Shown: piece by piece, positions 6,880 to 51,159 of the stretch | Position numbering within the stretch: the stretch's first letter is position 1 | Layout: the number at the start of each line of letters is the position of its first letter | Assembly (NCBI RefSeq): GCF_019443505.1 | Contig: NZ_CP080377.1 | Span: forward strand, 5,518,001 to 5,582,000 | Length of the DNA stretch: 64,000 nt | Origin: Janthinobacterium sp. PAMC25594 | GTDB taxonomy: Bacteria; Pseudomonadota; Gammaproteobacteria; Burkholderiales; Burkholderiaceae_D | Direction of reading: 5' to 3' | Position numbers and translations under genes: made by a program | The notes under the pieces: model-generated | Told to the model about the DNA's origin: nothing | Databases searched by the model: none | What the model saw: the letters and a program-made list of their open reading frames with translations, nothing else

Positions 6880-6915
6880 CGGGTGCTGACTATGCGCTGT
6901 TGAACGCTGGAGGGT

Positions 6916-7005
6916 TAGTCGACGCCCAGCGTACCGCCCACGGAGCTTTCTGGCAGCAGTCCGCCAGAGACTACTTCGATTTCATTGCCGTCTAATTCTT
7001 GCATA
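6916..7005 (-). CDS. Double-glycine PESSVGG peptide precursor A
   Basis: A 29-codon gene: leader MQELDGNEIEVVSGG (15 aa, ending in GG) and core LLPESSVGGTLGVD (14 aa). The leader has the ELxxxEIxxVxGG pattern of substrates cleaved by C39 peptidases of ABC exporters. The start has a strong GAGGTGA Shine-Dalgarno. It lies just behind such an exporter gene, has its own promoter (7051-7079) and its own terminator. Six close relatives lie 3.7-5 kb upstream. The core is unusually short, has no Cys and matches no RiPP class that I recognise. The product is presumably a secreted signalling or bacteriocin-like peptide; function unknown. Confidence 0.8.
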
Positions 7006-7050
7006 GCTGTCACCTCACGAATAAGGCTTGCGAAATTGCAAACCTAATCC

Positions 7051-7079
7051 ATCGTAAAACAATTCTTGCCGCATGCCAA
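7051..7079 (-). promoter_or_regulatory. Promoter of peptide gene A
   Basis: On the minus strand TTGGCA and TACGAT are separated by exactly 17 bases, ending 46 bases before the ATG. The AATTG(T/C)TTTACGAT stretch containing the -10 is repeated upstream of peptide genes B (about 10840-10855) and D (about 11393-11408), which points to shared control. Confidence 0.6.
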
Positions 7080-7082
7080 GCT

Positions 7083-9233
7083 TTAAGCGGCCACTTGCGT
7101 TTCCTGCATCAAATCCTCCACGATTTTCCCCTGCTGCAGCACCACCACCCGTTGCGCCATGGCGATGGTTTCCGGGCGGTGCGCGACGATCACGCGCGTG
7201 AGCTGGATTTTCTGGATCGCCGCGTTCACGGCCTGTTCGTTGCGCGTGTCCAAGTGGCTGGTCGCTTCGTCGAGCACCAGCAGTTTCGGGTTTTTATACA
7301 GGGCGCGCGCCAGCAGGATGCGCTGTTTCTGGCCGCCGGACAGGCCGCTGCCGATGTCGCCCACCAGGGTATTGAAAGCCATCGGCATGGCGGCGATTTC
7401 CGCATGCACGGCCGCCAGATGCGCGCAGGCTTGCACTTGCTGATAATTGGGGGAGGGGGCAAAGAAGCTGATGTTGTCGGCGATCGAGCCGGCAAACAAG
7501 GTGTCTTCCTGCATGACCGTGCCCAGCAATTGCCGGTAGTTCGTCAAACCCAGGCTGCCCAGCTGGATGCCGCCGATGAGGATTTCACCTTCCGTCGGTT
7601 CCAGCAAGCCCAAGAGCAATTTCATGAGGGTCGTCTTGCCACAGCCGGACGGGCCGGTGATGGCGATGCACTGCCCGGCGGGAATGCTCAGATTGAGGCC
7701 ACTCAATACATAGGGTTCGCTGTCGGCGTAGCGGAAAGCCAGATTGCGGATTTCGATCGATGGAGAGATATCGTCCATGTCGACCTCGACGTCGTTGCCA
7801 TCTACTTCCGCGTCCGTCAGGACAATGTCGGCCACGCGCTCGCCATGCAGGCGCAGCATGCGCAGTTCAAATAATTTGTCGACCAGGCTGGCCATGCGCT
7901 GGCTGAACTGGTCCTTGTAGCTGATGAAGGCGAACAGCATGCCCACCGAAAAGCGGTTGTCCAGCACGGCCAGCGCCGCCATCCAGATGACGATCACCCG
8001 TTCGGCGCTGAACAACAAAGTATTGGCCGTCTGGTAGGAAACAGACAGCTTGGCGATGCGCAGGTCGGCATTGAACTGGTCGGCCAATGCGTTGGTCCAG
8101 CTGGCCCGGCGCTCGTCGTTGCGCCCGAACAGGCGGATGCTCTGGATGCCGCGCACGGACTCCAGGAAATGCGTCTGCTGCCGGGCCGCATGGATGATCT
8201 GTTCGGCCGTCGCCTCGCGCATGGCCTTGAACAGGGCCCAGCGCAGCAAGACGTACAGCAGCACGGCGATGCAGGCCACGCCCGCCAGCAGGGGGCTGTA
8301 GAACAGCATCATGCCCAAAGTGGCCAGCACCAGCACGCCATCGATGGCGCCTTCGACGAATTGCGTCGTCAGGCTGCGCTGCATGGTCTGGATGGAATTG
8401 AAACGCGAGACGATGTCGCCCGTGTGGCGTTTCTCGAAGTACGGCAGCGGCAACTTCAGCAAGTGAGCGAAGGCATTGCCCAGCCATTGCAAGTTCAGAT
8501 TCGTGGCCAGCACCGTGGTGATCCAGGAACGCACGGCGCCGATGGCCGTCTGCACCAGCACCAGCAGCAAGAAGCCGCAGCCGAGCACGGTGATCAGGTC
8601 GCGGTCGGCCGCCAGCAGCGCTTCATCGACCAGCCATTGCATGTAGAACGGCGCCACCAGCGCGCATACCTGCAGGGCCAGGCCCAGCACCAGCAATTGC
8701 AGCAAGCCGCGTTTCAGCCCCACCACGCGCCCCATCAGCGACAGCAGCGAAAACTGCTGCTTTTCCTCGGCCTTTTTGAACTCGGCGGTGGGTGTCAGTT
8801 CCAGCGCCACGCCTGTAAAGTGTTTCGCCACTTCCGCCAGCGCCAGGCGGCGCTCGCCCACGGCCGGGTCGTGGATCACCGCATGGCTGCCGGAGACGGA
8901 CTTGAGCACGACAAAATGGTTCAAATCCCAATGCAGGATGGCGGGCAGCTTCAGCTCGGGCAGATGCTGCATGTCGAGTTTCAACGGCCGCGTATGCAGG
9001 GCCAGCCCTTGCGCCATCGCCATCAGGCCTTTCAGGGTTACACCCTTCAGAGAAACCGAGAAACGCCGGCGCATGCTGGAAATATCGGTCTGGTGGCCCC
9101 AGTAGCTGGCCACCATCGATAAACAGGCCAGGCCGCATTCGGCCGCTTCCGTTTGCAGCAGGACGGGCAGGCGCTGGCTGCGCCAGAAGGACAGGTGGGC
9201 AAGATCAGGAAGGTGCATGAGTATTGTGGACAA
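7083..9233 (-). CDS. Peptidase-containing ABC transporter (C39 bacteriocin-type exporter)
   Basis: A 716-aa inner-membrane exporter that removes double-glycine leaders and exports the peptide. The N-terminal C39 cysteine peptidase shows 'LLQTEAAECGLACLSM' (Gln27, catalytic Cys33), 'LNHFVVLK' (His106) and 'IHDP' (Asp122). A six-helix membrane domain spans about residues 170-440. The ATPase has Walker A 'ITGPSGCGKTT' (527-535), signature 'LSGGQKQR' and 'LLVLDEATSHLD'. The start at 9233 is TTG; ATG 9218 is an equally good start and would remove five residues. It is 12 bases from the hlyD stop, so both are in one transcript. The clustered GG-peptide genes are the obvious substrates. No TolC gene is in the window. 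Confidence 0.92.
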   Translation of the reverse strand: MSTILMHLPDLAHLSFWRSQRLPVLLQTEAAECGLACLSMVASYWGHQTDISSMRRRFSVSLKGVTLKGLMAMAQGLALHTRPLKLDMQHLPELKLPAILHWDLNHFVVLKSVSGSHAVIHDPAVGERRLALAEVAKHFTGVALELTPTAEFKKAEEKQQFSLLSLMGRVVGLKRGLLQLLVLGLALQVCALVAPFYMQWLVDEALLAADRDLITVLGCGFLLLVLVQTAIGAVRSWITTVLATNLNLQWLGNAFAHLLKLPLPYFEKRHTGDIVSRFNSIQTMQRSLTTQFVEGAIDGVLVLATLGMMLFYSPLLAGVACIAVLLYVLLRWALFKAMREATAEQIIHAARQQTHFLESVRGIQSIRLFGRNDERRASWTNALADQFNADLRIAKLSVSYQTANTLLFSAERVIVIWMAALAVLDNRFSVGMLFAFISYKDQFSQRMASLVDKLFELRMLRLHGERVADIVLTDAEVDGNDVEVDMDDISPSIEIRNLAFRYADSEPYVLSGLNLSIPAGQCIAITGPSGCGKTTLMKLLLGLLEPTEGEILIGGIQLGSLGLTNYRQLLGTVMQEDTLFAGSIADNISFFAPSPNYQQVQACAHLAAVHAEIAAMPMAFNTLVGDIGSGLSGGQKQRILLARALYKNPKLLVLDEATSHLDTRNEQAVNAAIQKIQLTRVIVAHRPETIAMAQRVVVLQQGKIVEDLMQETQVAA

Positions 9234-9245
9234 TCAATATGGGGC

Positions 9246-10583
9246 TTACAGGCGCCCGGAAATGCTGAACAGCGGTTCGAGCACCCATTCATACAGGCGG
9301 CGCTGTTCCAGCAGCACGCTGGCGTCAACCAGCATGCCTGACTTCAGGGGCAGGGTTTCGCCATACGCCTGCACGCTCTGGCGCTGCAAGGTCAGCCGGA
9401 TGCGGTACAAGGGTTCGCCATTCGTGCCGCTGACGGCGCCCGGCACCGCCAGCTCTTCGGGCCGCAGCGAGGTGCTGGCCACTTCGCGCACCAGCGCCGG
9501 ATACTGGCCGAATTTCTGGTACGGATATGCCTGGTAGCGCAGCAGCACCGTCATACCCGGCTTGATGAAGCCAACCGAGCGCGACGGCGCGTAGATTTCC
9601 GCTTCCAGCTGGGCGCCTTGCGGCAGCACGGAGGCAAGCACGCTGTTGGCCGCCACGGTTTGCCCCAGTTCGGTGGTGATGGCCGTGACCATGCCGTCCT
9701 GCGCCGCGCGCACCAGGATTTCGCGGCGCGCCTCGTTTTCCGTCAGGTCCTGTTCGATAGCAGAGACATTGCGCTGCAAGCCTTCCGTGTCGCGCTGCGC
9801 CTGCACCTGCAGGTCGCGCACGTCGGCTTGCGTGGTGGCCAGGTCGCGCTGGCTGGCCGACTTGATGCGCTGCAATTCGGCCAGGCGCTGGTGCTGGTCC
9901 AGCAGCTCGGCCTGTTTATCCTGCAGTTGTGCCGATGAGATGTAATGGGTGGCGTGCAGGTCGCCGTAGCGCTGGTAGGATTGGTCCGCCAGGGTAATGC
10001 GGCGCTGCTGCAGCGCGATCTGGTCGTCCATGCGGCCGATTTCCGCCACCAGGTCGCTGGCGCGGCGCTGGCCCGCCGCCATGCGCTGGCGCGATTGCAG
10101 GCGCGACTGCTGCAATTCCGCGTCATAGCTGTCGCGCCGGCTTTTCAACAAGTCTGAAACGACTTGCTGGGGCGCACCCGCATTGGCGCTGCTGCGCTCG
10201 CCCGACAGCACGAACAGTACCTCGCCCGCGCGCACCGTCTGCCCTTCCTTGACGCGCACCCCGGCGATGACGCCCGCCTGGCCCGGCATGATGCGGATCA
10301 CGCCGCTGGTCGGCAGCAGCACGCCCTGCGATTGCGCCTTGCGCGTGGTGCTGAAGAAGATGAAGAAAGCGACGATGGCCAGCGCGATGCCCAGGAACAG
10401 GCAGGTCAGGAACAGATGGCTGACGGGCCGCGCCAGCAATACCGTGCCGTACTGCTTGTTGCCCAGATGCTCGATGGCTTGCTGGCGAAACAGGGGCTGG
10501 ACGGGCGGGGCGGGGCTGGTGGTGGCGGGAACGCTGGGTTGATCACGCAAGATGATGGACTTTTCAGGGAATGAAGGGGACAC
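9246..10583 (-). CDS. HlyD-family periplasmic adaptor of the peptide exporter
   Basis: A 445-aa membrane fusion protein. It has a cytoplasmic Pro-rich N terminus, one membrane helix at about residues 55-78 (SHLFLTCLFLGIALAIVAFF), a lipoyl/barrel half 'GVIRIMPGQAGVIAGVRVKEGQTV', a long coiled coil (about 140-290), and the returning barrel domain ending 'LLEQRRLYEWVLEPLFSI'. This is the CvaA/HlyD layout. It links the inner-membrane ABC exporter to an outer-membrane TolC-type channel. It sits between the peptide genes and the exporter gene in the same orientation, with 121 bases to peptide gene B upstream. Confidence 0.92.
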   Translation of the reverse strand: MSPSFPEKSIILRDQPSVPATTSPAPPVQPLFRQQAIEHLGNKQYGTVLLARPVSHLFLTCLFLGIALAIVAFFIFFSTTRKAQSQGVLLPTSGVIRIMPGQAGVIAGVRVKEGQTVRAGEVLFVLSGERSSANAGAPQQVVSDLLKSRRDSYDAELQQSRLQSRQRMAAGQRRASDLVAEIGRMDDQIALQQRRITLADQSYQRYGDLHATHYISSAQLQDKQAELLDQHQRLAELQRIKSASQRDLATTQADVRDLQVQAQRDTEGLQRNVSAIEQDLTENEARREILVRAAQDGMVTAITTELGQTVAANSVLASVLPQGAQLEAEIYAPSRSVGFIKPGMTVLLRYQAYPYQKFGQYPALVREVASTSLRPEELAVPGAVSGTNGEPLYRIRLTLQRQSVQAYGETLPLKSGMLVDASVLLEQRRLYEWVLEPLFSISGRL

Positions 10584-10704
10584 TAAGGAAGGGGGCGTAT
10601 TCGCAGGCTGGCTGTTTGTCTGTGAACTGATCAGTGGAGCCGCATCAACGCATCCTGTTGCGGCTCCGGATTGTCAGCGCGGAACACTGTTGATGTTTTG
10701 TGTC

Positions 10705-10791
10705 TTACCAGTCAGTATTGCTGCCAACGGAGCTTTCAGGCAACAGTCCACCTGCAACTTCGTCGATTTCGTTCGTGCTTAATTCTTGCAT
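10705..10791 (-). CDS. Double-glycine PESSVG peptide precursor B
   Basis: 28 codons: leader MQELSTNEIDEVAGG and core LLPESSVGSNTDW (13 aa). It is the only family member with PESSVGS in place of PESSVGG. Good AAGGAATAGACC Shine-Dalgarno spacing. It is the last peptide gene before hlyD and may be cotranscribed with the exporter. A terminator upstream (10945-10982) separates it from peptide gene C, so it probably has its own start; the repeated AATTGCTTTACGAT element lies about 55 bases upstream of the ATG. Confidence 0.78.
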   Translation of the reverse strand: MQELSTNEIDEVAGGLLPESSVGSNTDW

Positions 10792-10820
10792 GGTCTATTC
10801 CTTAATAAGATAACAAAATT

Positions 10821-11025
10821 TACGTTTTTGAAGCAAAAACATCGTAAAGCAATTGTTAAAAAAAGCATAGATTTATTGTGGCAGGCACAGGTGCAAGAGA
10901 GGCCTTCCAAGCGCTGGTGCCGTAGATCGCCATGACTGCCAGATAAAAAAAGAGCCACGCCGGTGAATGCAGGGGCGGCTCTGGATTGGGGCGTAGCTTG
11001 CAGCAGCAAGGTGCTGCCTTGCTGG
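10821..11025. repeat. Intergenic repeat copy 1 (between peptide genes B and C)
   Basis: About 205 bases match 11376-11579 imperfectly. Shared landmarks in order: ACGTTTTT, ACATCGTAAAGCAATTG, a run of A, GCATAGATTTATTGTGGCAGG, a terminator stem AGAGCCAC...GGCTCT, and GCAGCAAGGTGCTGCCTTGCTGG. Each copy thus carries one promoter-like element and one terminator. The duplication explains how the array grew. Confidence 0.75.
10945..10982 (-). terminator. Terminator after peptide gene C
   Basis: On the minus strand AGAGCCGCC pairs with GGCGTGGCTCT (2-base bulge), followed by TTTTTTT. It lies about 50 bases after the peptide C stop and upstream of peptide B, so the array is not a single uninterrupted operon. 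Confidence 0.7.
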
Positions 11026-11032
11026 TATTAAT

Positions 11033-11119
11033 TTACAAGCTGGTGTCTCCGCCGACCGAGCTTTCAGGCATGTTTCCACCGGATACTACTTCGATTTCGT
11101 GTGTGTTTAATTCTTGCAT
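11033..11119 (-). CDS. Double-glycine PESSVGG peptide precursor C
   Basis: 28 codons: leader MQELNTHEIEVVSGG and core NMPESSVGGDTSL (13 aa). The leader is identical to that of peptide G. The NM before PESSVGG is shared with E and G, whereas A, B and D have LL. Two hairpins follow: a 7-bp AGCAAGG/CCTTGCT stem at 11005-11023 and a terminator at 10945-10982. No frame other than this one is conserved among the seven copies. Confidence 0.78.
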   Translation of the reverse strand: MQELNTHEIEVVSGGNMPESSVGGDTSL

Positions 11120-11195
11120 GTCTGTTACTCCATTTTTATAGGTGGATTTGCGAAATTAAATTTATCACAAGACGGTTTTCTTGCGATACCAAGAT

Positions 11196-11227
11196 GAGGC
11201 AGAAAGACCTCCGTCTTTCTTTGCCTC
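11196..11227. terminator. Strong hairpin between peptide genes D and C
   Basis: GAGGCAGAAAGAC (11196-11208) pairs with GTCTTTCTTTGCCTC (11213-11227), with a 2-base bulge and a CTCC loop. No long T run follows on either strand. It may act as a processing or attenuation hairpin between the two peptide genes rather than as a full terminator. Confidence 0.5.
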
Positions 11228-11257
11228 TACCTTTAGTATGTAATCTGGCTCGCTCGT

Positions 11258-11347
11258 TTAGTTCATGTCGGAGTCACCGCCCACCGAGCTTTCCGGCAGC
11301 AGGCCACCTGCCACAGCGTCGATTTCGTTCGTGTTTAATTCTTGCAT
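11258..11347 (-). CDS. Double-glycine PESSVGG peptide precursor D
   Basis: 29 codons: leader MQELNTNEIDAVAGG and core LLPESSVGGDSDMN (14 aa). AAGGAG lies 6 bases before the ATG. Upstream it has intergenic repeat copy 2 with the AATTGCTTTACGAT element. The core is acidic and lacks aromatic residues, unlike B and G, which end in DW or DWG. The tail after PESSVGG is the only variable part of the family and may carry specificity. Confidence 0.78.
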   Translation of the reverse strand: MQELNTNEIDAVAGGLLPESSVGGDSDMN

Positions 11348-11375
11348 GCTCTGCTCCTTGGTGATGTCATAAGAT

Positions 11376-11579
11376 TTACGTTTTTTTACAACAACATCGT
11401 AAAGCAATTGTTAAAAAAAGCATAGATTTATTGTGGCAGGTGCCAGTGCAAGATATCCCTTCCAGCCGCTGATGTAGCTTGTCGCCATTGTTGCCATGTA
11501 ATAAAACAAGAGCCACGCGGGTGAATATCGGGGCGGCTCTGGATGGGGGGCTTGCGGCAGCAAGGTGCTGCCTTGCTGG
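11376..11579. repeat. Intergenic repeat copy 2 (between peptide genes D and E)
   Basis: Imperfect copy of 10821-11025. It includes the promoter-like AATTGCTTTACGAT element (minus strand, near 11393-11408) and a terminator stem (11503-11540). Confidence 0.75.
11503..11540 (-). terminator. Probable terminator after peptide gene E
   Basis: On the minus strand AGAGCC and GGCTCT pair around a GC-containing loop, followed by TTGTTTTAT. It is weaker than its copy at 10945-10982 because the T run is interrupted. Confidence 0.5.
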
Positions 11580-11586
11580 AGTCACT

Positions 11587-11673
11587 TTACATGGTGGTGC
11601 TTCCGCCAACCGAGCTTTCCGGCATGTTCCCACCGGATACTTCATCGATTTCGTTTGTATTTAATTCTTGCAT
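11587..11673 (-). CDS. Double-glycine PESSVGG peptide precursor E
   Basis: 28 codons: leader MQELNTNEIDEVSGG and core NMPESSVGGSTTM (13 aa). It follows peptide gene F by 134 bases in which I see no strong terminator, so F and E may share a transcript. No obvious strong Shine-Dalgarno (AACATTGAGTTAAACAAC precedes the ATG), unlike A, B and D, so it may be translated less. The amino acid pattern is fully conserved with its neighbours. Confidence 0.74.
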   Translation of the reverse strand: MQELNTNEIDEVSGGNMPESSVGGSTTM

Positions 11674-11807
11674 GTTGTTTAACTCAATGTTAAAGATTGG
11701 CCAGGAAAGTCGAATCTCGACAGCTGTCGCCGGAAGCCTTGCTTGTAAATTCTGATGACTCACCGATCCAGTATCGCGACCTGTGGGCTTAGCTCGGAAG
11801 AGAAGGA

Positions 11808-11894
11808 TTACATCAGGACATTGCCGCCGACCGAGCTTTCAGGCATGACTCCGCCGGATACTTCTTCGATTTCATTGATCTCTAATTCTTGCAT
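11808..11894 (-). CDS. Double-glycine PESSVGG peptide precursor F
   Basis: 28 codons: leader MQELEINEIEEVSGG and core VMPESSVGGNVLM (13 aa). It is the most divergent leader and the most hydrophobic tail of the seven, but the PESSVGG block is unchanged. SD is weak (GTGAGAAAACAAT). It lies 75 bases downstream of peptide gene G, in the same orientation and probably on the same transcript. Confidence 0.76.
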   Translation of the reverse strand: MQELEINEIEEVSGGVMPESSVGGNVLM

Positions 11895-11969
11895 ATTGTT
11901 TTCTCACTGACGAAGTTGCTTTTTATGTGGAATGATGCTTATGGCAAGTCACTTGCATGCTGGATAATA

Positions 11970-12059
11970 TCAACCCCAATCCGACGATCCGCCAACTGAG
12001 GACTCTGGCATGTTTCCGCCGGATACTACTTCGATTTCGTGTGTGTTTAATTCTTGCAT
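11970..12059 (-). CDS. Double-glycine PESSVGG peptide precursor G
   Basis: 29 codons: leader MQELNTHEIEVVSGG and core NMPESSVGGSSDWG (14 aa). Its end, PESSVGGSSDWG, is almost the same as the C terminus of the 189-aa protein encoded immediately upstream (PESSVGGSLDWG). The DNA downstream of both stop codons is also similar (about 11895-11999 against 12060-12165). It looks like a recent duplication that joined a GG leader to the tail of the larger gene, or the reverse. SD TGAGGAAAC is present. Confidence 0.78.
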   Translation of the reverse strand: MQELNTHEIEVVSGGNMPESSVGGSSDWG

Positions 12060-12134: not shown

Positions 12135-12704
12135 TCAACCCCAGTCCAACGATCCTCCCACCGAGCTTTCCGGGTCAAAGGAAAAGACGCGCAGTTCTGG
12201 TTGAACGCCTTCGCCGCGCATGATGCGTACGGTGATGACGAAGGAGAGTTCCCATCGACCCGTTGCATAGCCAACGTCGAGATTGTGTTTCCAATCCTGG
12301 CGAATGCGGCGCAGTGGTGGCAAGGCAGTGTTCTCTGCATCTCCCAGCAATACTTCGGCTTCGAAGTCCAATGGGAAGTTGTAGGTGGCGCCTACGGCTT
12401 GCAGGAATGGGGACGGCGGTGCATAGACAGTAGGAACATTCGGTCCTATTTGTGTAAGTTGTGGCACGGTAACGATGCAGCAGTCGACGATCTGGAACGA
12501 CGTGAAACCACTCTCCTTGGAACCACAGCAAGTGACGTCGAGGTACACATGCTGGCCTTGCTGAAAGTGCACGCCGCCCATATAGGCACCATGACGCGGA
12601 TCTGCGGTGCCATCGCATGAAGTGAAGCTATAGTCGAGCTGGTTGGTGATCTGGTCTGCGTCAAAATGTACGGATAATTTCATCCAGGGGCTGACAGGCG
12701 TCAT
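12135..12704 (-). CDS. 189-aa protein of unknown function ending in the PESSVGG tail
   Basis: I do not recognise this family. The protein is soluble-looking, beta-rich, with no signal peptide and no GG leader. It has five Cys as C30 and two adjacent pairs (CC59-60, CC75-76) and a Pro-rich stretch at 90-100 (NVPTVYAPPSPF). The last 12 residues, PESSVGGSLDWG (178-189), match the mature core of the seven small peptides. Its start overlaps the kinase stop by 4 bases (12701-12704), so the two are translationally coupled. The context suggests a partner, target or modified product of the kinase/exporter system. It could be a secreted protein or the intracellular receptor that the peptides mimic. Function unknown. 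Confidence 0.72.
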   Translation of the reverse strand: MTPVSPWMKLSVHFDADQITNQLDYSFTSCDGTADPRHGAYMGGVHFQQGQHVYLDVTCCGSKESGFTSFQIVDCCIVTVPQLTQIGPNVPTVYAPPSPFLQAVGATYNFPLDFEAEVLLGDAENTALPPLRRIRQDWKHNLDVGYATGRWELSFVITVRIMRGEGVQPELRVFSFDPESSVGGSLDWG

Positions 12705-14941
12705 GTTTTAGGATCTCTTTTTAAGTTGATAACAAATTGCTGGTAGCGAGCATCTCGCCTGAGGTTCAATAGATCGGGAGCAGTCTCGATCAAATTGAGA
12801 GGATAGCCAAGTCTGGCAGCTTCCAGCAGCGCCGTCATGGCCGCGTCATGGTTGCCGATCAGCTCATGGGTTAGTGCAGCGCGGAATTGAACATCGGGCA
12901 AACGAGGGGCATTGGTGACTGCTTTCTCGACACTGTTCAATGCCTCCTTTTTTGCGCCCACGTAGGCTGAATACAAGGCCATACGCGAATTGAAGGTGAC
13001 GTCGTCAGGAATGCGCGCCAGCAGCGGTGTGAGTAGTTCGATGGCGCGCCGATAGGACCTTTGCGATGCTTCGGCTTGTGCGGGGATCCAGCGCTGTGCG
13101 TCGGCAAGATTGGCCCATAACTGATAGGTATTCGGACTCCCCTTGCTTGAAGATACGGCGTTTTCGAATGCTTGCACGGCACCCACATAATCAGCCTTGG
13201 CAAACAATGACGTTCCCAGATTGCTATAAAGCTCCCAGTTCGGCTGGAGTTGCAAGCCTTGCTGCAATACACGCAAGGCTTCGTCATTGCGGTTTTGGCG
13301 CAAGAGAACGGCATTCAGGTAGGCATAGGCACTTGCTGATTGCGGATCGAGTTCTATGCTTTTGCGAAACGCCTGCTCAGCGCTAGCATAGTCAGCTTGA
13401 CGATAATGCATTAACCCCAGCAGTGTTGAGAGCATGCGCTCCTTGGGGTAGTTGTACGCTGCATCATCGAGTAGCGTTTTGGCCATGTCAAACTTTTTGA
13501 GATTAATTAATTGGCGTGCTTTACCGACGATTGCCATCAGGTTTTGCGGATCAAGGTTCAATGCGCTGGCCGACGCTCGCAACGCTTCTTCCTGCTTGCC
13601 TTGGAATTCAAGCACCCAAGCTTGCGCCACATGGGCTAGCGCCAGCTGATTATCTAACGTCAGAGCCTGTTGTGCCCCAGCATCCGCGCGCTGCAGCCAA
13701 GTCTCGTCGCGGCCATTGCCGATGTAACGTAGGCTATACGCCAGCGACAGGCCAGCCGAAGCGGCAGCGCTGGCTGGATTGTGTTTGAGCACCGTGTTGA
13801 AGTGCGCAATGGCCTGTTCTTGACTGGTGTCGCGATCAAACACCCGCAACGCTTCCATCCCCGCCGCCATGCTGGCCATTTCCGAATACGGCGCAGGTGC
13901 TTTCTCGCCCGTGACGAACGATTTGACGGCCGGAATGATATTGGGTAGCTGCCATCCCGCCAGTACCGCCAGCAGCGCCACGCCCGCGCCCCACTGCAGG
14001 GTGCGCTTGCGGGGCAGGGGCAGGCGGATGGAGACGCTGGCGGGAGGTTCTTCCTTCGCGGGCGTCTCGTCAGCAAGGGCCGTGGCTAAGGTGACAGCTT
14101 CTCCGCGCTGCGCCCCTATCGCCTCGCGCACGTCGCGCATGGTGCGTGGCCGTTCGGCCGGGTCGTGCGCCGTCATCGCGCGCACGAGGGCGTTGATGGT
14201 GGGCGGCACGGAGTCGGGCAGGTCAGGCCACGGTTCCGTCGCCTGCATGTGGGCGGCGGCCAGGGCCAGGCCGTTCAGGTGGGCGAAGTGGCGCTGGCCA
14301 GCCAGCATTTCGTACAGCATGGCGCCCAGCGCGTAGACGTCGCCGCGCGTGTCGGGCAGGCGGCCCATCAGGCGCTCGGGCGCCATGTAGGCGATCGTGC
14401 CCTGCAAGTCGCACAGGGTGGTCGTTTGCGTGGCTTGCGGGTCGATGTGGCGCGCCAGGCCGAAGTCGAGGATGCGTACCTTGCCGCTAGCCTCGAGCAT
14501 CAGGTTCGACGGTTTCAAGTCGCCGTGCACGAGGTCCATGGCGTGCGCCTCGTCCATCGCGTCGGCGATCTGGTAGGCGATGTCGAGCGCGGCTTGCAAG
14601 TCAGCCTTGCCGCTGTGCATGAATTGCCCCAGCGTCTGGCCTTCGACCAGTTCCATGACGATGGACTGGCTCGTGCCTTGGCCCTCGATGGCGAAGATGC
14701 GCACGAAGGCCGCATGCTTGAGCGAGGCGGCCAGGCGCGCTTCATTGATGAGTTTTTCGGGATGCAGCACGTCGGCTTGCGGTTTCAGCCGCTTCAGCGC
14801 CACGCTGCGGCACAGCTTGGCATCCCAGGCTTCGAATACATGGCCGAAACCGCCTTCGCCCAGCAAGCGGCGCACTTCGTAGTGCCCGCTGATAGTGTCG
14901 TCTTGCGACGGGGTCTGACGCGGGGAGTCGAGCAGTTCCAT
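12701..14941 (-). CDS. Hanks-type serine/threonine kinase with transmembrane helix and TPR domain
   Basis: A 746-aa PknB-like kinase. The catalytic domain (about 20-280) has 'LLGEGGFGHVF' (Gly loop 28-33), 'VALKRL' (Lys50), 'HGDLKPSNLML' (Asp141; HGD in place of HRD), 'ILDFGLA' (Asp159) and 'APERLMG'. One membrane helix lies at about 316-334. The C-terminal half is a TPR array ('ALAHVAQAWVLEFQGKQEEA', 'DPQSASAYAYLNAVLLRQN'). The HGD motif suggests activation that does not depend on activation-loop phosphorylation. It is the first gene of the minus-strand peptide cluster and diverges from tssF. GC content is high over the kinase domain and clearly lower over the TPR part (from about 13830 downward), as in the peptide region. 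Likely it senses protein partners through the TPRs. Confidence 0.9.
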   Translation of the reverse strand: MELLDSPRQTPSQDDTISGHYEVRRLLGEGGFGHVFEAWDAKLCRSVALKRLKPQADVLHPEKLINEARLAASLKHAAFVRIFAIEGQGTSQSIVMELVEGQTLGQFMHSGKADLQAALDIAYQIADAMDEAHAMDLVHGDLKPSNLMLEASGKVRILDFGLARHIDPQATQTTTLCDLQGTIAYMAPERLMGRLPDTRGDVYALGAMLYEMLAGQRHFAHLNGLALAAAHMQATEPWPDLPDSVPPTINALVRAMTAHDPAERPRTMRDVREAIGAQRGEAVTLATALADETPAKEEPPASVSIRLPLPRKRTLQWGAGVALLAVLAGWQLPNIIPAVKSFVTGEKAPAPYSEMASMAAGMEALRVFDRDTSQEQAIAHFNTVLKHNPASAAASAGLSLAYSLRYIGNGRDETWLQRADAGAQQALTLDNQLALAHVAQAWVLEFQGKQEEALRASASALNLDPQNLMAIVGKARQLINLKKFDMAKTLLDDAAYNYPKERMLSTLLGLMHYRQADYASAEQAFRKSIELDPQSASAYAYLNAVLLRQNRNDEALRVLQQGLQLQPNWELYSNLGTSLFAKADYVGAVQAFENAVSSSKGSPNTYQLWANLADAQRWIPAQAEASQRSYRRAIELLTPLLARIPDDVTFNSRMALYSAYVGAKKEALNSVEKAVTNAPRLPDVQFRAALTHELIGNHDAAMTALLEAARLGYPLNLIETAPDLLNLRRDARYQQFVINLKRDPKT

Positions 14942-15233
14942 ATACCTTGGCTTCAGAGTGCATCAGCGTGGACGTCAAGCATCGAGAGGGGCAATGCGAT
15001 GTTTGAATGCCCAAGATGATTGATTTTGAGTAACTTCCTGATTTAAAACGATTGTTTCGAATAAGTCAATTAATATTGGCAAGGAGTGAACAAAAGTTGC
15101 TGTGTCAGCGCCGGAATGGCATTCCTTGCTGATGCATGCAATCTTGTTCAAACTCAATTTTCCTATTCCCCGCTTCCTCAATAATGCAGATGGGGTGATA
15201 CCGGCATGTGTCGATCAGGCGATGGGAGCTGGC
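14942..15233. other. Divergent intergenic region between the kinase cluster and tssF
   Basis: 292 bases with an AT-rich middle (about 15010-15110) that must hold the promoters in both directions. I could not pick a convincing -35/-10 pair on either strand and see no gene here. Confidence 0.4.
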
Positions 15234-17075
15234 ATGGATGAGTTGCTGCAGTATTACGAGCGCGAACTGGGCACCTTGCATGCGCACAATCAGGCGTTTG
15301 CCCGGCGCTATCCGGCCATCGCTGGCGCGCTGGGCATCGTGGGCGGTGACCTGGGCACCACCGACGATCCGCACCTGGCGCGCATGCTGCAGGCGTTTGC
15401 CATGTTCAATGCGCGCACGGCGAAGCGGCTGGCCGATGGCTTCGGCACCTTCAGTGAAACCTTGCTGGAAGTCAATTTCCCCCATTATTTGCGCCCGTTT
15501 CCTGCCTGCGCCATTGCCCGCATCGATAACGACCTTGCGGCGGTGAGCGAGCTGGCCGTGATCCCGCGCGGCACGCTCATGCATGCTGCGGAACATCAGG
15601 GCGTTGCCTGCAAGTTCACCACCGCCTACGATGTCGCCGTGGCGCCGCTGCGCCTGTCCGAGGTGCGTTTCCAGTCCATCGTGGCGGCGCCGCCCGCAGT
15701 GCGCCTGCCACCGGATCTGGGGGCGGCAATCAGCATCACGCTCGAAGCGACGGGCGCCACGTCCACGCTGGACGCGCTGCCGCTGCCGGCGCTGCGCCTG
15801 TTCCTTGATGGCGAGCCTTCCTTTTGCGCCACCTTGCGCGACAGCCTGTTCCTGCGTGCGCGTTGCGCCTATGTGGAAGCCGACGGTATATGGCATGGGC
15901 TGGATGCAGTGCCCTTGCATCCGATCGGCTTTGCCGCCGAGGATGCCCTGATGCCGACCATGGCCGCCTCGCATCCCGCTTACCGCTTGCTGGGCGAATG
16001 GTTTGCCTTTCCGGATAAATTCAATTTCGTCGACCTGGACCTGGCCGCGCTGCGCCCGCTGTTGCCGCCGGCCTGCCGGCGCTGCACCATCCACCTGCTG
16101 CTGGCCGACGTACAGGCCGATGCGGATGTCGCGCGCATCCTGCGGCCCCTGTCCGCCAGGCATCTGCTGACGGGATGCACGCCCGTCGTCAACCTGTTTC
16201 GCCAGGCGGCCAATCCCATTCGCCTGACGCATGCGAGCGCCGAGCATGTGCTGCTGCCATCGGTGCGGCAGGCGCATTGCTACGATATTTACAGCATCGA
16301 CAGCGTGCATGTCCTCAGTGAAACGCAGAGTGGTGGCGCACTCGATGCGTTTCACCCGTTCTATTCGATGCGCCATGGCGAAGCGGGCGGGCGCCGGGGA
16401 CGCTACTGGGTGACGCGGCGCGACGAAGACATGGCACTGAGCAATCCCGGCTACGACATGCGCATCGCCTTTGTCGACGGCGCCATGCAGCCGCTGCACG
16501 ACGCGACGCAAACGGTGTCCATCATGCTGACCTGCAGCAACCGCGATTTGCCGAGCCGCCTGGTGTTCGGCAATGCCGCGGGCGATTTGCACCATGACGG
16601 CGTGGCCAGCGCCTTGCCGGTGCGCCTGCTGCGCAAACCCGGCGCGCCGTGTCGCTTCCCTGCGGGTGCGGCGTCGCATTGGCGGCTGATCGCGCAATTG
16701 TCCCTGAACCATCAGTCGCTGAATGAACAGGGCTTGCCGCTCTTTAAGCAAATACTCGAGCTGTACAACTTGCCCGGTTCGGCCAGCGCCGCGCGCCAGA
16801 TCGCAGGCTTGACGGGACTGCGCCAGCGCGCCGCCAGTACCTGGCTGCAGGACGAGGCGGGCGGCAGCCTCGTCTTCGGCATCGACGTCCTGCTGTCCAT
16901 CGATGAAGAAGCCTTTGTCGGCAGCGGCTTGCATGCCTTTGCCCAGGTGATCGAACGCTTTCTCGGGCTGTATGTGCACCTGGCCTCGTTTACCCGCCTG
17001 ATCGTCTTGTCGCAGAAGACTGGAAAGGAGTTGCTGTGCTGCCTGCCACGCAATGGAAACCAGACGCTGGTGTAG
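15234..17075 (+). CDS. tssF: Type VI secretion baseplate subunit TssF
   Basis: A 613-aa TssF (VasA family), the wedge component of the T6SS baseplate. The start 'MDELLQYYERELGTLHAHN' and following 'FARRYPAIAGALG' are diagnostic. 'VNFPHYLRPFPACAIARI' and the C-terminal 'QVIERFLGLYVHLASFTRL' are also typical. ATG 15234 has GGGAG 5-6 bases upstream; the frame extends upstream to 15102 without family similarity. It overlaps tssG by 40 bases. TssF normally works with TssE, TssG and TssK. TssE and TssK are not encoded in this window. Confidence 0.92.
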   Translation: MDELLQYYERELGTLHAHNQAFARRYPAIAGALGIVGGDLGTTDDPHLARMLQAFAMFNARTAKRLADGFGTFSETLLEVNFPHYLRPFPACAIARIDNDLAAVSELAVIPRGTLMHAAEHQGVACKFTTAYDVAVAPLRLSEVRFQSIVAAPPAVRLPPDLGAAISITLEATGATSTLDALPLPALRLFLDGEPSFCATLRDSLFLRARCAYVEADGIWHGLDAVPLHPIGFAAEDALMPTMAASHPAYRLLGEWFAFPDKFNFVDLDLAALRPLLPPACRRCTIHLLLADVQADADVARILRPLSARHLLTGCTPVVNLFRQAANPIRLTHASAEHVLLPSVRQAHCYDIYSIDSVHVLSETQSGGALDAFHPFYSMRHGEAGGRRGRYWVTRRDEDMALSNPGYDMRIAFVDGAMQPLHDATQTVSIMLTCSNRDLPSRLVFGNAAGDLHHDGVASALPVRLLRKPGAPCRFPAGAASHWRLIAQLSLNHQSLNEQGLPLFKQILELYNLPGSASAARQIAGLTGLRQRAASTWLQDEAGGSLVFGIDVLLSIDEEAFVGSGLHAFAQVIERFLGLYVHLASFTRLIVLSQKTGKELLCCLPRNGNQTLV

Positions 17076-18064
17076 TCGCGCGCCTGCTGGCCGATCCGTC
17101 CGGTACCGGCTTCTTTCAGGCGGTGCGGCTGCTGTCTGCCTGGCTGATGCAGCAGGGCATTTCGCAGGAGCAGGTGTTTGAGGATTATCTGCGCCTGCAT
17201 GGCAGTGCATCGCTGTCGTTTGCGCCGGGCGAAATCGAACAGCTGTGGCTGGAGCAGGAACCAGATGGCGAGACACAGGTGCATGTGCAGGCGGCCATGC
17301 TGGGTTTTTTAGGCGTGCATGGCAGCTTGCCGCTGCATTACACGGAAACGCTCGCCCGCCACGAGCGGCAAACGGGCGATGGCGGTCCCCGTGCCTGGCT
17401 CGACACGCTCTCGCAACGCGCGCTGGCCTTGTTCTACCAGGCCTGGGCCCGCTACCGCATCGAATGCCAGCAGGACGCCGACGGCGGCGATTTCCTGCCC
17501 TTGCAACTGGCTCTGGCGGGAGCCTGGCCTGCCCAGGTGGCCAAGCTGACGGATGGCTTGCCAGCGCATGTGCTTGCCCATTACGCGGCCTTGTTGCGGC
17601 ATCGGCCCGTGGCGGCCGACGTGATGCAGGCGCTGCTGGCCGGGTATTTCGGCGTGCCCGTGCGCATACAGCGTTTTGTGGGCGCCTGGTTCCGGCGCGC
17701 GCCGCAGGAGCGCACCTTGCTGGCTAGTGCCAACGCGCGGCTGGGACAAGGCGCCATGCTGGGAGAGCGCTGCCGGCGCGCCGACTTGCGCTTGCGCCTC
17801 GTGCTGGGGCCGCTGGCACGCCGCGTCTACGAGGATTTCTTGCCCGGACGCCCCGGTGCGCTGGCCCTGCGTCAGATGCTGGGCCTGTTTGGCTTGCCTG
17901 GCATGAGTTTTGAAATACGCCTGGTGCTGCGCCGGGAAGATGTGCGCACCTGCGTGCTGGGCATGGGCGACTGCCTGGCGGAGGATGCCTTTTTGGCCGA
18001 CAAATTGCCGGCCCGTGAGCGTGACGACATGCATTACGACATTCGATTCGATGGTTCCGCCTGA
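17036..18064 (+). CDS. tssG: Type VI secretion baseplate subunit TssG
   Basis: A 342-aa TssG (VasB family), partner of TssF in the baseplate wedge. Typical blocks are 'GFFQAVRLLSAWLMQQG', 'VHVQAAMLGFLGVHGSLPLHYTE', 'LFYQAWARYRIE' and 'LAGYFGVPVRIQRFVGAWF'. The start is GTG with GGAAAGGAG 5 bases upstream, inside the end of tssF, so translation is coupled. The length is normal for the family. Confidence 0.92.
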   Translation: MLPATQWKPDAGVVARLLADPSGTGFFQAVRLLSAWLMQQGISQEQVFEDYLRLHGSASLSFAPGEIEQLWLEQEPDGETQVHVQAAMLGFLGVHGSLPLHYTETLARHERQTGDGGPRAWLDTLSQRALALFYQAWARYRIECQQDADGGDFLPLQLALAGAWPAQVAKLTDGLPAHVLAHYAALLRHRPVAADVMQALLAGYFGVPVRIQRFVGAWFRRAPQERTLLASANARLGQGAMLGERCRRADLRLRLVLGPLARRVYEDFLPGRPGALALRQMLGLFGLPGMSFEIRLVLRREDVRTCVLGMGDCLAEDAFLADKLPARERDDMHYDIRFDGSA

Positions 18065-18112
18065 GACCGCCATGCATGCTGTACCCCGATGATTGCTGGA
18101 AGGAAGAAAACA

Positions 18113-20857
18113 ATGGAAGACTTCGCGCAATGGCTGGCCGTGGACAAGGTCTTGACTGCAGGCAATCGCGCCTTGCGGCTACGCCTCGCTTATCCGGAAG
18201 GCATCAATGAGGATATCTTGCTGCCGCAGCGCATCAGCGGCAGCGAGGCCATCTGCGGCGGGATCGAGTACCGCATCCTGTGCGTGGCCACCGAGGCGCA
18301 GCTGCCGCTGAAACAGTTCATCGCCGTGCCGGCCGAATTGCAAATAGTGACCGACCAGGGGCAGCTGCGCAGGGTCTGCGGCATCGTCGCCGAAGCGAGC
18401 GCGGGGCAGAGCGATGGTGGCCTGGCGACCTATCAACTGGTGCTGCGCGACGGCCTGGCGTTGATGGAAAAACGCGTCAACACGCGCGTGTTTCGCAACA
18501 AGCATGAATTGCAGATCGTGCAGCTCCTGTTTGAGGAGTGGCGGCAGGGCAATAGCGTGCTCGCCGCCAGCCTGGATCTCGCCATCGATGCGGCGCTGGC
18601 GGCGCGCAGCTTGCCCGTGCGCGAATTCACGATGCAGCATAACGAATCCGATGCCGCCTTTATCCGCCGCCTGCTCAGGCGCCGCGGCATCGCCTGGTGT
18701 TTCCAGGCGGGAGCGACCGCCAGCGCGAATGCCACCACCATGCCCGTGCATGCCCTGCTGCTGTTCGACGACGCCAGCCGCCTGCCGGAAAACGCGGCCG
18801 GCGCGGTGCGCTATCACCGCGACGACGCCACCGAGGAAAGGGATACCGTGACGGCCTGGAGCGCCGTGCGCCGCTTGCAAGCGGGAAAGTTCGAACGCTA
18901 CAGCTGGGACGATGGCCACCCGCACAGCCCGCAGTTCATGGCCACGCAGTCGCACGGCGGCGTGGACCAGGGCGGGAATGGCAATCGCCTGGCGGCCAGT
19001 CTCGACGACTATATCGTGGAGCCGCCGCTGGCCGCCGGCAGCAATGACGAATTGCGGCAACTGGGCCAGCTGGCGATGGCGCGTCACGACATGGACAGCA
19101 AGTGTTTCCAAGGAGAAGGCTGCGTGCGCGACTTTTGCGCGGGCCAATGGTTCAGCCTGGAAGGGCATGCCGACATCGACAGCCATCCGGTTCCCGAGCG
19201 CAGTTTCGTCATCACGGCCTTGAGCGTATCGGCCAGCAATAACTTGCCGACAGGCCTGGATGCCAGGGTCGGGCGCCTGTTTGCACAGAGCGGCTGGCAG
19301 TGCGATGCCGGCCCGGCACAAGGGGCAGGCGCCGATGGCCAGGCGGCCTTGCGCTACCGTAACCGTTTTACCTGCGTGCGGCGCGGCATCGCCATCGTGC
19401 CCGCTTTTGACTCGCGCAGCGATTTCCCCGCCGTTCGTCTGCAAAGCGCGCTGGTCGTCGGGCCTGCCGGCGAGGAAGTACATTGCGATGCGCTGGGACG
19501 TGTCAATGTGCGTTTTGTTGCGACGCGCGCGCCGGACCACGCGCATGCCAACGGTTCCGGCGCCTCCGATACGGAGCGCGATTCTGCCTGGGTGCGCGTG
19601 GCATCGAGCTGGAGCGGCAATGGCCCGGGCAGCGGCAAACAATGCGGCACCTTGAGCTTGCCGCGCATCGGCGCGGAAGTGCTGATCGATTTTCTCGGCG
19701 GCGACCCGGACCGGCCCATTATCGTGGGCCAGCTGTACAACGCCGTGGGTGCGCCGCCGGGCTTGAGCGCGCGCGGCGCCTTGCCCGGCAACCGTTATCT
19801 GTCCGGCATGCGCAGCCGCGAAGTGCGCGGTGGGCGCGGCAACCAGCTGTGCTTTGACGACACGCCGTCGCAGATCAGCGCGCAACTGGCCAGCGACCAG
19901 GCGGCCACGCAATTGAACCTCGGCTATCTGACGGAACCGCGTAGCGACGGCGCAGGGCGGCAGCGCGGCGACGGCTTCGAGTTGCGCAGCGACGCCAGCG
20001 GCAGCGTGCGCACGGCCCGTTCGCTGCTGATTTCGGCCTGGAAACAGCTGGGCGCCAGCGGCAAGCAGCTCGATGGCAGCGAGCATGCCGCCGTGATGCA
20101 GGAATGCCTGGAATTGTTGACCTCCCTGGGCGAGTTTGCCGCCCAGCACCAGGCGCTGGCGTGGGACGCGGCCGGCAGCAAGGCGCTGGGCGCCGCGATT
20201 GCCGCCGACCAGCCCGCCGTCAGCATCACGGCGCCCGAGGGCGTGGCGCTGAGTACCCCCAAAACCATCAGCGGCAACGCGGGCGCGAATATCGACCTGG
20301 TGGCCCAGCAGCATTTGCAACTGAGCGCGGCCCAGCGCTGCAATGTCAACGCGGGCAAGGGCATTTCCCTGTTCGCGCACGAGGATGGCATCGTGCAGGT
20401 GGCCCACTTCGGCAAGTTTTTGCTGCAAAGTCAGCACGACCTGCTGCAGGCGGACGCCGCCAAGGAGATCCGCCTGACAGCCGGCACGCGCCTGGTCGGC
20501 GTGGCGCAGGACGAAATCACCTTCATGACGGCGGGCGGCGCCTACCTGAAACTGTCCGGCGGTGCGGTGGAACTGGGCGGTCCCGGCGCGCTGACGGTGA
20601 AGACTGATGGCCACCACTGGAACGGCCCGGCCAGCATGAAAGGCGAGCTGCCCACCTTCGGCGAGGGCGAGCTGGGCCGCGTGCCGCGATTGCTGCGTCC
20701 CACCGACGGCTTGCCCGTCGAAGGCGTGGAAGTGCATATCGAGCGCGAAGGCGACGGTCCCGTGACGGGCGTCAGCGGCGCCGACGGGCGCGGGCCGAAG
20801 GTGGCGACCGATCATCTGCAGCGGCTGAAGGGTTTCTTCTTCCGCCGCCGTTCCTGA
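18113..20857 (+). CDS. vgrG: Type VI secretion spike protein VgrG
   Basis: A 914-aa VgrG (TssI). The gp27-like part includes 'EFTMQHNESDAAFIRRLLRR' (shared by all VgrGs). The gp5 OB fold includes 'DALGRVNVRF' and 'WVRVASSWSG...GTLSLPRIGAEVLIDFLGGDPDRPIIVG'. A DUF2345-type needle follows. The last 60 residues, 'LLRPTDGLPVEGVEVHIERE' onward, look like a short transthyretin-like cargo-docking domain. ATG 18113 has GGAAGGAAG upstream; ATG 18089 is in frame but lacks an SD. There is no fused toxin domain, so the downstream lipase is the likely cargo. Confidence 0.93.
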   Translation: MEDFAQWLAVDKVLTAGNRALRLRLAYPEGINEDILLPQRISGSEAICGGIEYRILCVATEAQLPLKQFIAVPAELQIVTDQGQLRRVCGIVAEASAGQSDGGLATYQLVLRDGLALMEKRVNTRVFRNKHELQIVQLLFEEWRQGNSVLAASLDLAIDAALAARSLPVREFTMQHNESDAAFIRRLLRRRGIAWCFQAGATASANATTMPVHALLLFDDASRLPENAAGAVRYHRDDATEERDTVTAWSAVRRLQAGKFERYSWDDGHPHSPQFMATQSHGGVDQGGNGNRLAASLDDYIVEPPLAAGSNDELRQLGQLAMARHDMDSKCFQGEGCVRDFCAGQWFSLEGHADIDSHPVPERSFVITALSVSASNNLPTGLDARVGRLFAQSGWQCDAGPAQGAGADGQAALRYRNRFTCVRRGIAIVPAFDSRSDFPAVRLQSALVVGPAGEEVHCDALGRVNVRFVATRAPDHAHANGSGASDTERDSAWVRVASSWSGNGPGSGKQCGTLSLPRIGAEVLIDFLGGDPDRPIIVGQLYNAVGAPPGLSARGALPGNRYLSGMRSREVRGGRGNQLCFDDTPSQISAQLASDQAATQLNLGYLTEPRSDGAGRQRGDGFELRSDASGSVRTARSLLISAWKQLGASGKQLDGSEHAAVMQECLELLTSLGEFAAQHQALAWDAAGSKALGAAIAADQPAVSITAPEGVALSTPKTISGNAGANIDLVAQQHLQLSAAQRCNVNAGKGISLFAHEDGIVQVAHFGKFLLQSQHDLLQADAAKEIRLTAGTRLVGVAQDEITFMTAGGAYLKLSGGAVELGGPGALTVKTDGHHWNGPASMKGELPTFGEGELGRVPRLLRPTDGLPVEGVEVHIEREGDGPVTGVSGADGRGPKVATDHLQRLKGFFFRRRS

Positions 20858-20880
20858 AACCCGACACCGGAGACCACACC

Positions 20881-29438: not shown

Positions 29439-29482
29439 ATTAATGCAAGTTAACTAATAAGTTAAAAAATCAGGACACCGCC

Positions 29483-50692: not shown

Positions 50693-51159
50693 GTAAGTGG
50701 TTTCTTGATAACAAGCCAGGCGTCTGGGCGCCAGATACTTTATGGTGGCTCTACAGAGTCTTTTCAGGCTCGTGCTTGGTTCTTTATCCCGGGTATGCGC
50801 AGTGTGCCACTTTTAGCGGCCTCTTGTCGCGTTTGCTTCTCGTATTCTGCTGCTGTTGTCATTCTAATTGTTACTAAATGTTGCCTTACTTGTTATAAAG
50901 ATACCGACTCCGGGCCAAGCTGGAGCATTTGCGCAACAGCGGGCTGTTGTATACTTGTCGCTGGTCGATGGCTGCTCATTTTTTGCGCCGTTTTGCCATC
51001 CAATCCTTACCGGCAGGCATCCATTCGATACAATACAGGAAATTGCCACTGGTGCATCCACCTCGCCATCGCGCAGTACACAAACATTGATCGGGCGTCT
51101 GCCCCATCCCCCAAATCCCGCCCTGAAGGGCTTGGCCTCGAGCCGGAGTATGCTTTACG
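50693..51159. promoter_or_regulatory. Divergent control region of the cyanophycin locus
   Basis: A 467-bp AT-richer gap between the divergent cph genes. On the plus strand TATACT (50950-50955) with TTTGCG 16 bases upstream is a possible promoter for the ABC gene. The minus-strand promoter for the cphA pair is not clear. No ORF here looks real. Confidence 0.45.

Follow-up and report, generated by a model that had tools for sequence, protein, structure and literature searches.

The window analysed here is a 64,000-nucleotide stretch of the Janthinobacterium sp. PAMC25594 genome (RefSeq assembly GCF_019443505.1, contig NZ_CP080377.1, positions 5,518,001 to 5,582,000 of the forward strand), and our subject is a minus-strand gene cluster within it, in which seven very small double-glycine peptide genes lie together with an exporter, a conserved 189-residue protein and a Ser/Thr kinase. 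The components, in window coordinates and read along the minus strand, are:

12701..14941, minus strand: Ser/Thr kinase with one hydrophobic segment and a C-terminal TPR domain; overlaps the gene of the 189-residue protein by 4 nt
12135..12704, minus strand: conserved 189-residue protein, all-beta in its model, C-terminus FDPESSVGGSLDWG; evident source of the peptide core
11970..12059, minus strand: peptide 1, MQELNTHEIEVVSGG/NMPESSVGGSSDWG; 75 nt past the gene of the 189-residue protein
11808..11894, minus strand: peptide 2, MQELEINEIEEVSGG/VMPESSVGGNVLM; tail the same as that of homologue P0025
11587..11673, minus strand: peptide 3, MQELNTNEIDEVSGG/NMPESSVGGSTTM
11258..11347, minus strand: peptide 4, MQELNTNEIDAVAGG/LLPESSVGGDSDMN
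11033..11119, minus strand: peptide 5, MQELNTHEIEVVSGG/NMPESSVGGDTSL
10705..10791, minus strand: peptide 6, MQELSTNEIDEVAGG/LLPESSVGSNTDW
9246..10583, minus strand: HlyD-type membrane fusion protein, 445 aa; Pfam HlyD_3 4e-13
7083..9233, minus strand: C39-peptidase ABC exporter, 716 aa; Pfam Peptidase_C39 2e-35, ABC_membrane, ABC_tran
6915..7004, minus strand: peptide 7, MQELDGNEIEVVSGG/LLPESSVGGTLGVD; tail and the DNA up to mutS match the end of the 189-residue protein gene in the array-less locus L049 (apparently a displaced tail)

The seven peptide frames, of 28 or 29 amino acids, start at 12059, 11894, 11673, 11347, 11119, 10791 and 7004. All were recovered as the initial annotation of this DNA had described them, that is, as seven minus-strand genes of 28-29 codons with a common leader (MQELxxxEIxxV(S/A)GG in every precursor), a common core ((L/M)PESSVG and then five or six residues, four or five of them beyond the second glycine), a variable tail and no cysteine. 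The span that it gave, 6916..12059, starts correctly at 12059 and stops one base short of the end of the last peptide at 6915; its placing of a C39 exporter and an HlyD gene between the sixth and seventh peptide is borne out by Pfam, which confirms both families.

Full peptides, with leader and core, were found in four of 40 genomes of the genus (G000, G035 and G026 with seven each, G033 with eight; G026 and G035 are the contigs of L040 and L042). Leaders of the double-glycine type end in GG or GA and carry conserved hydrophobic residues at positions -4, -7 and -12; here, in agreement with that rule, glycine stands at -1 in 28 of the 29 precursors of the four arrays, and the mature parts measure 13-14 residues in the window and 12-24 across all four arrays. 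Over all pairs of the 29 peptides, which are not independent of one another, pN/pS (the ratio of non-synonymous to synonymous polymorphism) is 0.25 for the leader and 0.15 for six core codons, low values that support translation of the frames and, with it, the coding status claimed for them at the outset. A degenerate scan of the whole genome returned nine matches (the reversed pattern, as control, gave two), namely the seven peptides, an unrelated PESRVG elsewhere and a copy at 12157-12173, in the end of the 189-residue protein.

This eighth copy, which the initial annotation had overlooked, forms the C-terminal end of the 189-residue protein, whose gene (12135-12704) shares its strand with the peptides. 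Homologues of this protein occupy 20 Janthinobacterium loci and one Duganella locus; every one of the 20 in Janthinobacterium terminates in FDPE(S/A/G)S(V/I)G and a variable tail. Among 60 homologues from the databases, the most distant at 33% identity, 57 have FDPE near the C-terminus and three have an unrelated end; D, P and E of the motif are invariant in the 36 homologues that were aligned. A motif so widely kept belongs to the 189-residue protein, and the peptide is therefore a chimera, made up of an export leader, which is absent from the gene of the protein, and a copy of the protein's end. At the level of sequence, then, the peptide core, a hydrophobic residue with PESSVGG and a short tail, is shown to copy the C-terminus of the adjacent protein. 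Across 22 sequences the last nine residues of the protein have a mean entropy of 1.42, against 0.16-0.77 for blocks of its body and 1.25 for one loop block. A free-standing new family of ribosomally synthesised and post-translationally modified peptides (RiPPs) or of pheromones was rejected as a full account, since the core is found at the C-terminus of the neighbouring protein.

Two sets of comparisons indicate that peptides and protein share their tails. In the first, 29 peptide tails were set against 68 distinct protein tails (database-protein tails of at least 12 residues being left out), and eight of the 29 are identical to the tail of a protein from another genome or from the databases; a column-shuffle null has a mean of 0.27, with none of 5000 shuffles reaching eight. 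In a later set, the 21 further peptides retrieved by two protein-database searches have 17 distinct tails, six of them identical to protein tails (null mean 0.12), one of which, GTFGLG, was already in the first set. Combined, 13 of 41 distinct peptide tails are identical to a known homologue tail (shuffle mean 0.31); as the strain of a database entry is not known, a match to another strain is shown for the genome loci only. Peptide P0067 and protein P0029 share 14 residues, PEGSVGGATDLGAM, and the tail found on the window's own protein, GSLDWG, recurs in P0079. These identities show, within the sequences compared, that peptides and protein draw their tails from one pool of alleles.

The DNA around the arrays bears on how the tails may have come there. 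Of 19 array-less loci, 13 have mutS within about 0.4 kb downstream of the gene of the 189-residue protein (nothing related was seen among the genes between the two in L055 and L057); in the window the whole array and its exporter lie between this gene and mutS. The coding end of peptide 7, PESSVGGTLGVD, together with the DNA up to mutS, aligns, in array-less L049 (tail GTLGVD), with the last part of the protein gene and the stretch between it and mutS, and similarity drops upstream of the PESSVG codons. The last peptide of G035 (GSSTYG) aligns likewise with L058 (GTSTYG), one residue being different; in G026 the mutS intergenic region matches, and the three relatives compared carry another tail. 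Thus the tail of the last peptide matches the protein tail of an array-less relative in two of three mutS-adjacent arrays (one exactly, one with one change), and so looks displaced by recombination. The window's protein gene, in its 3' end and the DNA downstream, moreover resembles the end of a G035 peptide gene (85% identity, 176 nt) and peptide 1 (80% identity, 177 nt). Some of the array tails, at the least, therefore look like former protein tails, displaced downstream by recombination at the PESSVG codons. Taking these lines together, we consider it highly probable that the peptides are translated, that they copy, in export-type form, the polymorphic end of the protein, and that they come from a shared pool and were arranged by recombination.

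The protein is much more widespread than the peptides. It is present in 34 of 40 genus genomes (in two only as distant homologues, at 49-54% identity) and in 62 of 392 genomes of the family, in five of 44 genera, whereas leader and core together were found, at E 0.05, in no family genome among the 392 other than the four with arrays. Any match at all was obtained in 57 of the 392, and among the matches listed beyond the four arrays nearly all cover the leader part only (positions 1-18 or 1-20); on the core side there are three, each a single weak match (E 0.01-0.04) in a genome of the genus, of which one contains a stop and another is the protein's own tail. The initial annotation had looked to many homologous arrays beside C39 exporters for support, and this expectation is borne out in part, by the four genus genomes and the 21 database peptides and by no other genome of the family. 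One database entry of 62 residues, P0071, is named copper(I)-binding protein, probably an annotation error, and has one such peptide at its C-terminus.

As to what the protein is, PixA membership by sequence was rejected (no match in Pfam or the PDB; the PixA profile, PF12306, matches none of 36 family members at E up to 10, with HMMER filters on), and a distant PixA-like fold is possible. Pfam recognised no Rhs or YD-repeat family on 36 members. Two distant homologues end in FDPESDV... and then continue, P0056 with a repeat of peptide-like LLPESDVNNGTI and P0057 with MPEVDPSSGGI, as though another tail, lacking a leader, had become joined to the first. Family members occur as an adjacent pair at G031:C390:5770-6953.

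A C39 and HlyD exporter is encoded at all four arrays, in open frame and 93-100% identical to that of the window. Sixteen of the 40 genus genomes hold an exporter at least 84% identical over almost its whole length (that of G002 with a stop), besides a fragment in G007; four of the 16 are at arrays, and around the other twelve and the fragment no copy of the 189-residue protein gene was found within 10.7-18 kb. With a broader pattern, small double-glycine precursors were found in eight of these 13 non-array loci, several with hydrophobic, glycine-rich cores and with leaders such as MQELSFNEIEEVSGG, and none in the other five. Hydrophobic, bacteriocin-like double-glycine precursors lie beside exporter relatives in L110, L112, L113 and L114. 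Since relatives of the exporter and of the leader occur elsewhere with bacteriocin-like cargo, export module and leader are of bacteriocin type. In trees of both proteins the G033 array exporter groups with the bacteriocin-locus exporters of G016 and G024 (support 1.0 for C39, 0.998 for HlyD) and not with the other three array exporters, for which reason a single origin of all arrays was rejected; the trees suggest either that exporters were recruited more than once or that they moved or were exchanged.

The Ser/Thr kinase gene lies directly upstream of the 189-residue protein gene in 21 of 21 loci. Its hydrophobic segment is preceded by basic residues, with a marginal hydropathy that falls below the cut-off in three of five kinases tested; its TPR domain is modelled with a pLDDT (predicted local distance difference test score) of 88.8, and the top structural matches are TPR superhelices. 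Mean entropy (22 sequences) is mostly 0.03-0.5 in the kinase domain and 0.4-1.8 in the TPR domain. Distances between tails correlate with distances between TPR domains, given body distance, with r of 0.42 in 30 genomes, 0.30 in the 26 left after removal of same-tail duplicates, 0.27 when L078 is also removed and 0.32 in 17 genomes of one clade; once TPR distance is allowed for, almost no correlation is left between tail and body. When body, MutS and kinase domain are brought in by turns as covariates (18 genomes), the TPR domain keeps a beta of 0.56-0.59 and is the only one that matters. L078 and L085 have their nearest body in a strain with a five-residue tail, and their nearest TPR domain and own tail of the six-residue kind.

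Because the core copies the protein's C-terminus and the tails come from the same pool, the reading shifts from a free-standing pheromone family to exported mimics, and we speculate here on how such mimics might act. The C39 protease would cut after the double glycine, and the C39/HlyD exporter with a TolC-type channel would release peptides of 13-14 residues. The tail of the protein would be a polymorphic ‘tag’ for recognition, and the membrane kinase encoded directly upstream would read it through its TPR domain. Released peptides, as soluble mimics of the tags of other strains, would bind, in neighbours, to the TPR domain of a kinase that matches the tail in question, and would there switch or block its signalling; in this way a strain would interfere with kin whose tail alleles differ from its own present one, or would be recognised by them. 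That the peptides act as soluble mimics of the tail on the TPR kinase of kin is the reading that we favour; it seems to us plausible, if somewhat short of probable. The fuller proposal, of an allorecognition or sabotage system with an exported library of other strains' C-terminal tags, gathered by recombination and allele-specific on the membrane TPR kinase of kin, we offer more tentatively. The initial annotation had supposed signalling or recognition peptides; coding frames, an adjacent exporter and a tail able to carry specificity agree with this, and what it had not seen was the origin of the core.

Several observations weigh against these mimics and their proposed receptor. When six sites are drawn at random from the variable positions of the body, they attain the value of the tail 23 times in 1000 (30 genomes) and 119 times in 1000 (26 genomes without duplicates), so that the covariation of tail and TPR domain is suggestive only; in view of this control, Mantel permutation p-values alone were set aside as too generous. 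A per-site association of TPR residues with tail length is confounded by clades and many-valued columns, and beyond the observation on L078 and L085 it was given no weight. The concave groove of the TPR domain (positions 2, 5, 9, 12 and 13) was tested twice as a hypervariable contact surface and gives no support: its positions are not more variable overall (p 0.95), those of repeats 6-8 being nearly invariant (means 0.06, 0.42 and 0.11) and those of repeats 1-5 variable (0.74-1.77), and with groove and non-groove sites of repeats 1-5 as rival predictors only the latter carry weight. The 189-residue protein has no hydrophobic segment (five copies tested) and the TPR domain is predicted outside the cytoplasm, which fits poorly with the proposed contact of the two. 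The present tail of a strain's own protein occurs in its own array in none of four arrays, as is also expected by chance, and exclusion of the own tail, true in 4/4, was for this reason not used as an argument. Among the precursors, one in G026 (L062 10594, minus strand) has SGR in place of SGG and its core altered to PESSFG, and is perhaps decaying, and of six G033 precursors listed, two or more lack a recognisable ribosome site.

An alternative that we consider unlikely is self-sensing, in which the producer's own kinase, or another receptor, reads the peptides as a signal of density or clonality and tail diversity is drift among redundant ligands. C39-exported double-glycine peptides of 13-14 residues are of pheromone size, and the kinase stands in the same gene neighbourhood; a pheromone of this kind sits poorly, however, with seven or eight different tails per producer, none of them that of its own protein, and with 30 of 34 protein-bearing genus genomes in which no array was found. 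We give a similarly low probability to the array being mainly a store of alternative 3' ends for the protein gene, in the manner of antigenic variation or Rhs tips, with export secondary or a relic. The 3' ends common to protein and peptide genes, within and between strains, the one tail pool and the displaced tail on the last peptide are what such a store would leave, but the leader has a low pN/pS and an exporter is kept in open frame at every array, which pure donors would not need.

Less likely still, in our view, are very small bacteriocins that directly kill or inhibit relatives, and for which the 189-residue protein, or its tail, would confer immunity or act as a decoy of the target. 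Cores of class II microcins and bacteriocins are hydrophobic or glycine-rich, antibacterial and usually longer than 30 residues. This exporter and leader group does go elsewhere with double-glycine precursors, several of them hydrophobic and bacteriocin-like, and P0077, one of the database peptides, is named bacteriocin; the earlier statement that the peptides match no bacteriocin or RiPP class is thus only partly right, their leader being of the usual double-glycine kind. The cores are nonetheless mostly of 13-14 residues (all of them in the window), by eye without the hydrophobic, glycine-rich stretch of the other cargos, and the protein with the motif is far more widely spread than the peptides (62 against 4 of 392 family genomes). 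That these are non-functional, decaying tandem duplications of the gene's 3' end, with start codons kept by chance, is very improbable, for all that one precursor has SGR and some in G033 have weak ribosome sites, given the low pN/pS, the near-constant lengths, the recurrence in four genomes and 21 database proteins and a leader that is not part of the protein gene.

Upstream of some peptides lies a short element, TTGYTTTACGATG, 58-61 nt before peptides 4, 6 and 7:

7050..7062, minus strand: upstream element of peptide 7, TTGTTTTACGATG
10840..10852, minus strand: upstream element of peptide 6, TTGCTTTACGATG
11395..11407, minus strand: upstream element of peptide 4, TTGCTTTACGATG

A shortened form lies 58-64 nt upstream of one G026 and two G035 peptides, making six of 27 peptides checked. 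The window holds four matches with at most one mismatch (0.08 expected), the fourth at 51150, and the element is possibly a shared promoter element; a scan for consensus promoters and terminators gave no excess over shuffles.

Divergent from the kinase gene, the plus strand of the window at 15102-23127 encodes TssF, TssG, VgrG and a Tle3-type phospholipase effector. Of 21 homologous loci, 12 have the full set of TssF, TssG and VgrG and all 21 have kinase and protein, and we therefore rejected dependence on the type VI secretion system (T6SS) and treat the link as one of neighbourhood only. Further along, at 28494-38626 on the plus strand, a gene for a ShlB-type transporter is followed by one for a 3047-residue exoprotein with an extended signal peptide and 18 YDG stretches.

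Among described systems, RaxX/RaxB of Xanthomonas is one of double-glycine/C39 export. RaxX (PMC6637879) is likewise a Gram-negative secreted peptide that resembles another ligand; it is tyrosine-sulfated and resembles a plant hormone, whereas here the copied sequence is that of a bacterial protein encoded next door. The IdsD/IdsE pair of Proteus mirabilis (PMC6682164) is by inference similar in being a polymorphic partner pair of related strains with a non-toxin logic of recognition, and T6SS genes adjoin the cluster in the window; IdsD, however, is a protein transferred by T6SS, unlike the small peptides and TPR kinase here. The pattern seen around the arrays is the one left by Rhs tip displacement, for which PMC2935791 describes a conserved body with an exchangeable C-terminal end and displaced ends retained in a row downstream: there too recombination in conserved sequence inserts ends from a pool common to strains, and here too variable C-termini sit on a conserved body, with 13 of 41 distinct peptide tails equal to a protein tail. 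The ends in our case are of about 10-14 residues, each with an export leader and a start codon, the exporter lies within the row, and no toxin domain was recognised. A GG leader with hydrophobic residues at -4, -7 and -12 is common to the peptides and to class II microcins and bacteriocins. Both also have an adjacent C39 exporter with HlyD (PMC9746304), and close relatives of the array exporter go with bacteriocin-like cargo in the same genus. The peptides differ in a core mostly of 13-14 residues copied from the C-terminus of a neighbouring protein, in seven or eight precursors per array, and in that no immunity gene was recognised among minus-strand open reading frames of at least 100 residues, of which there is none between 10583 and 12135.

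In the literature searched, from which subscription journals are mostly absent, no paper contains the strings PESSVGG, FDPESSVG, VSGGNMPES or SGGLMPESS, and none has both ‘double-glycine’ and ‘Janthinobacterium’. The pieces, that is, double-glycine export, C-terminal displacement and polymorphic recognition, are known; we know of no described system that joins them.

Exported double-glycine peptides of Gram-negative bacteria are usually read as toxins; here the export-type core is a copy of the variable C-terminus of a neighbouring protein, and each array holds seven or eight such alleles together with an exporter. This provides a candidate receptor in the TPR kinase, a candidate specificity code of mostly four to six residues, and natural pairs of alleles with which to test both. 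Were the allorecognition proposal true, such an array would amount to a secreted record of past and foreign identity tags. The finding suggests that an ordinary bacteriocin export module may have been re-used to broadcast pieces of the cell's own proteins, and with it a way in which related strains may recognise, or interfere with, one another.

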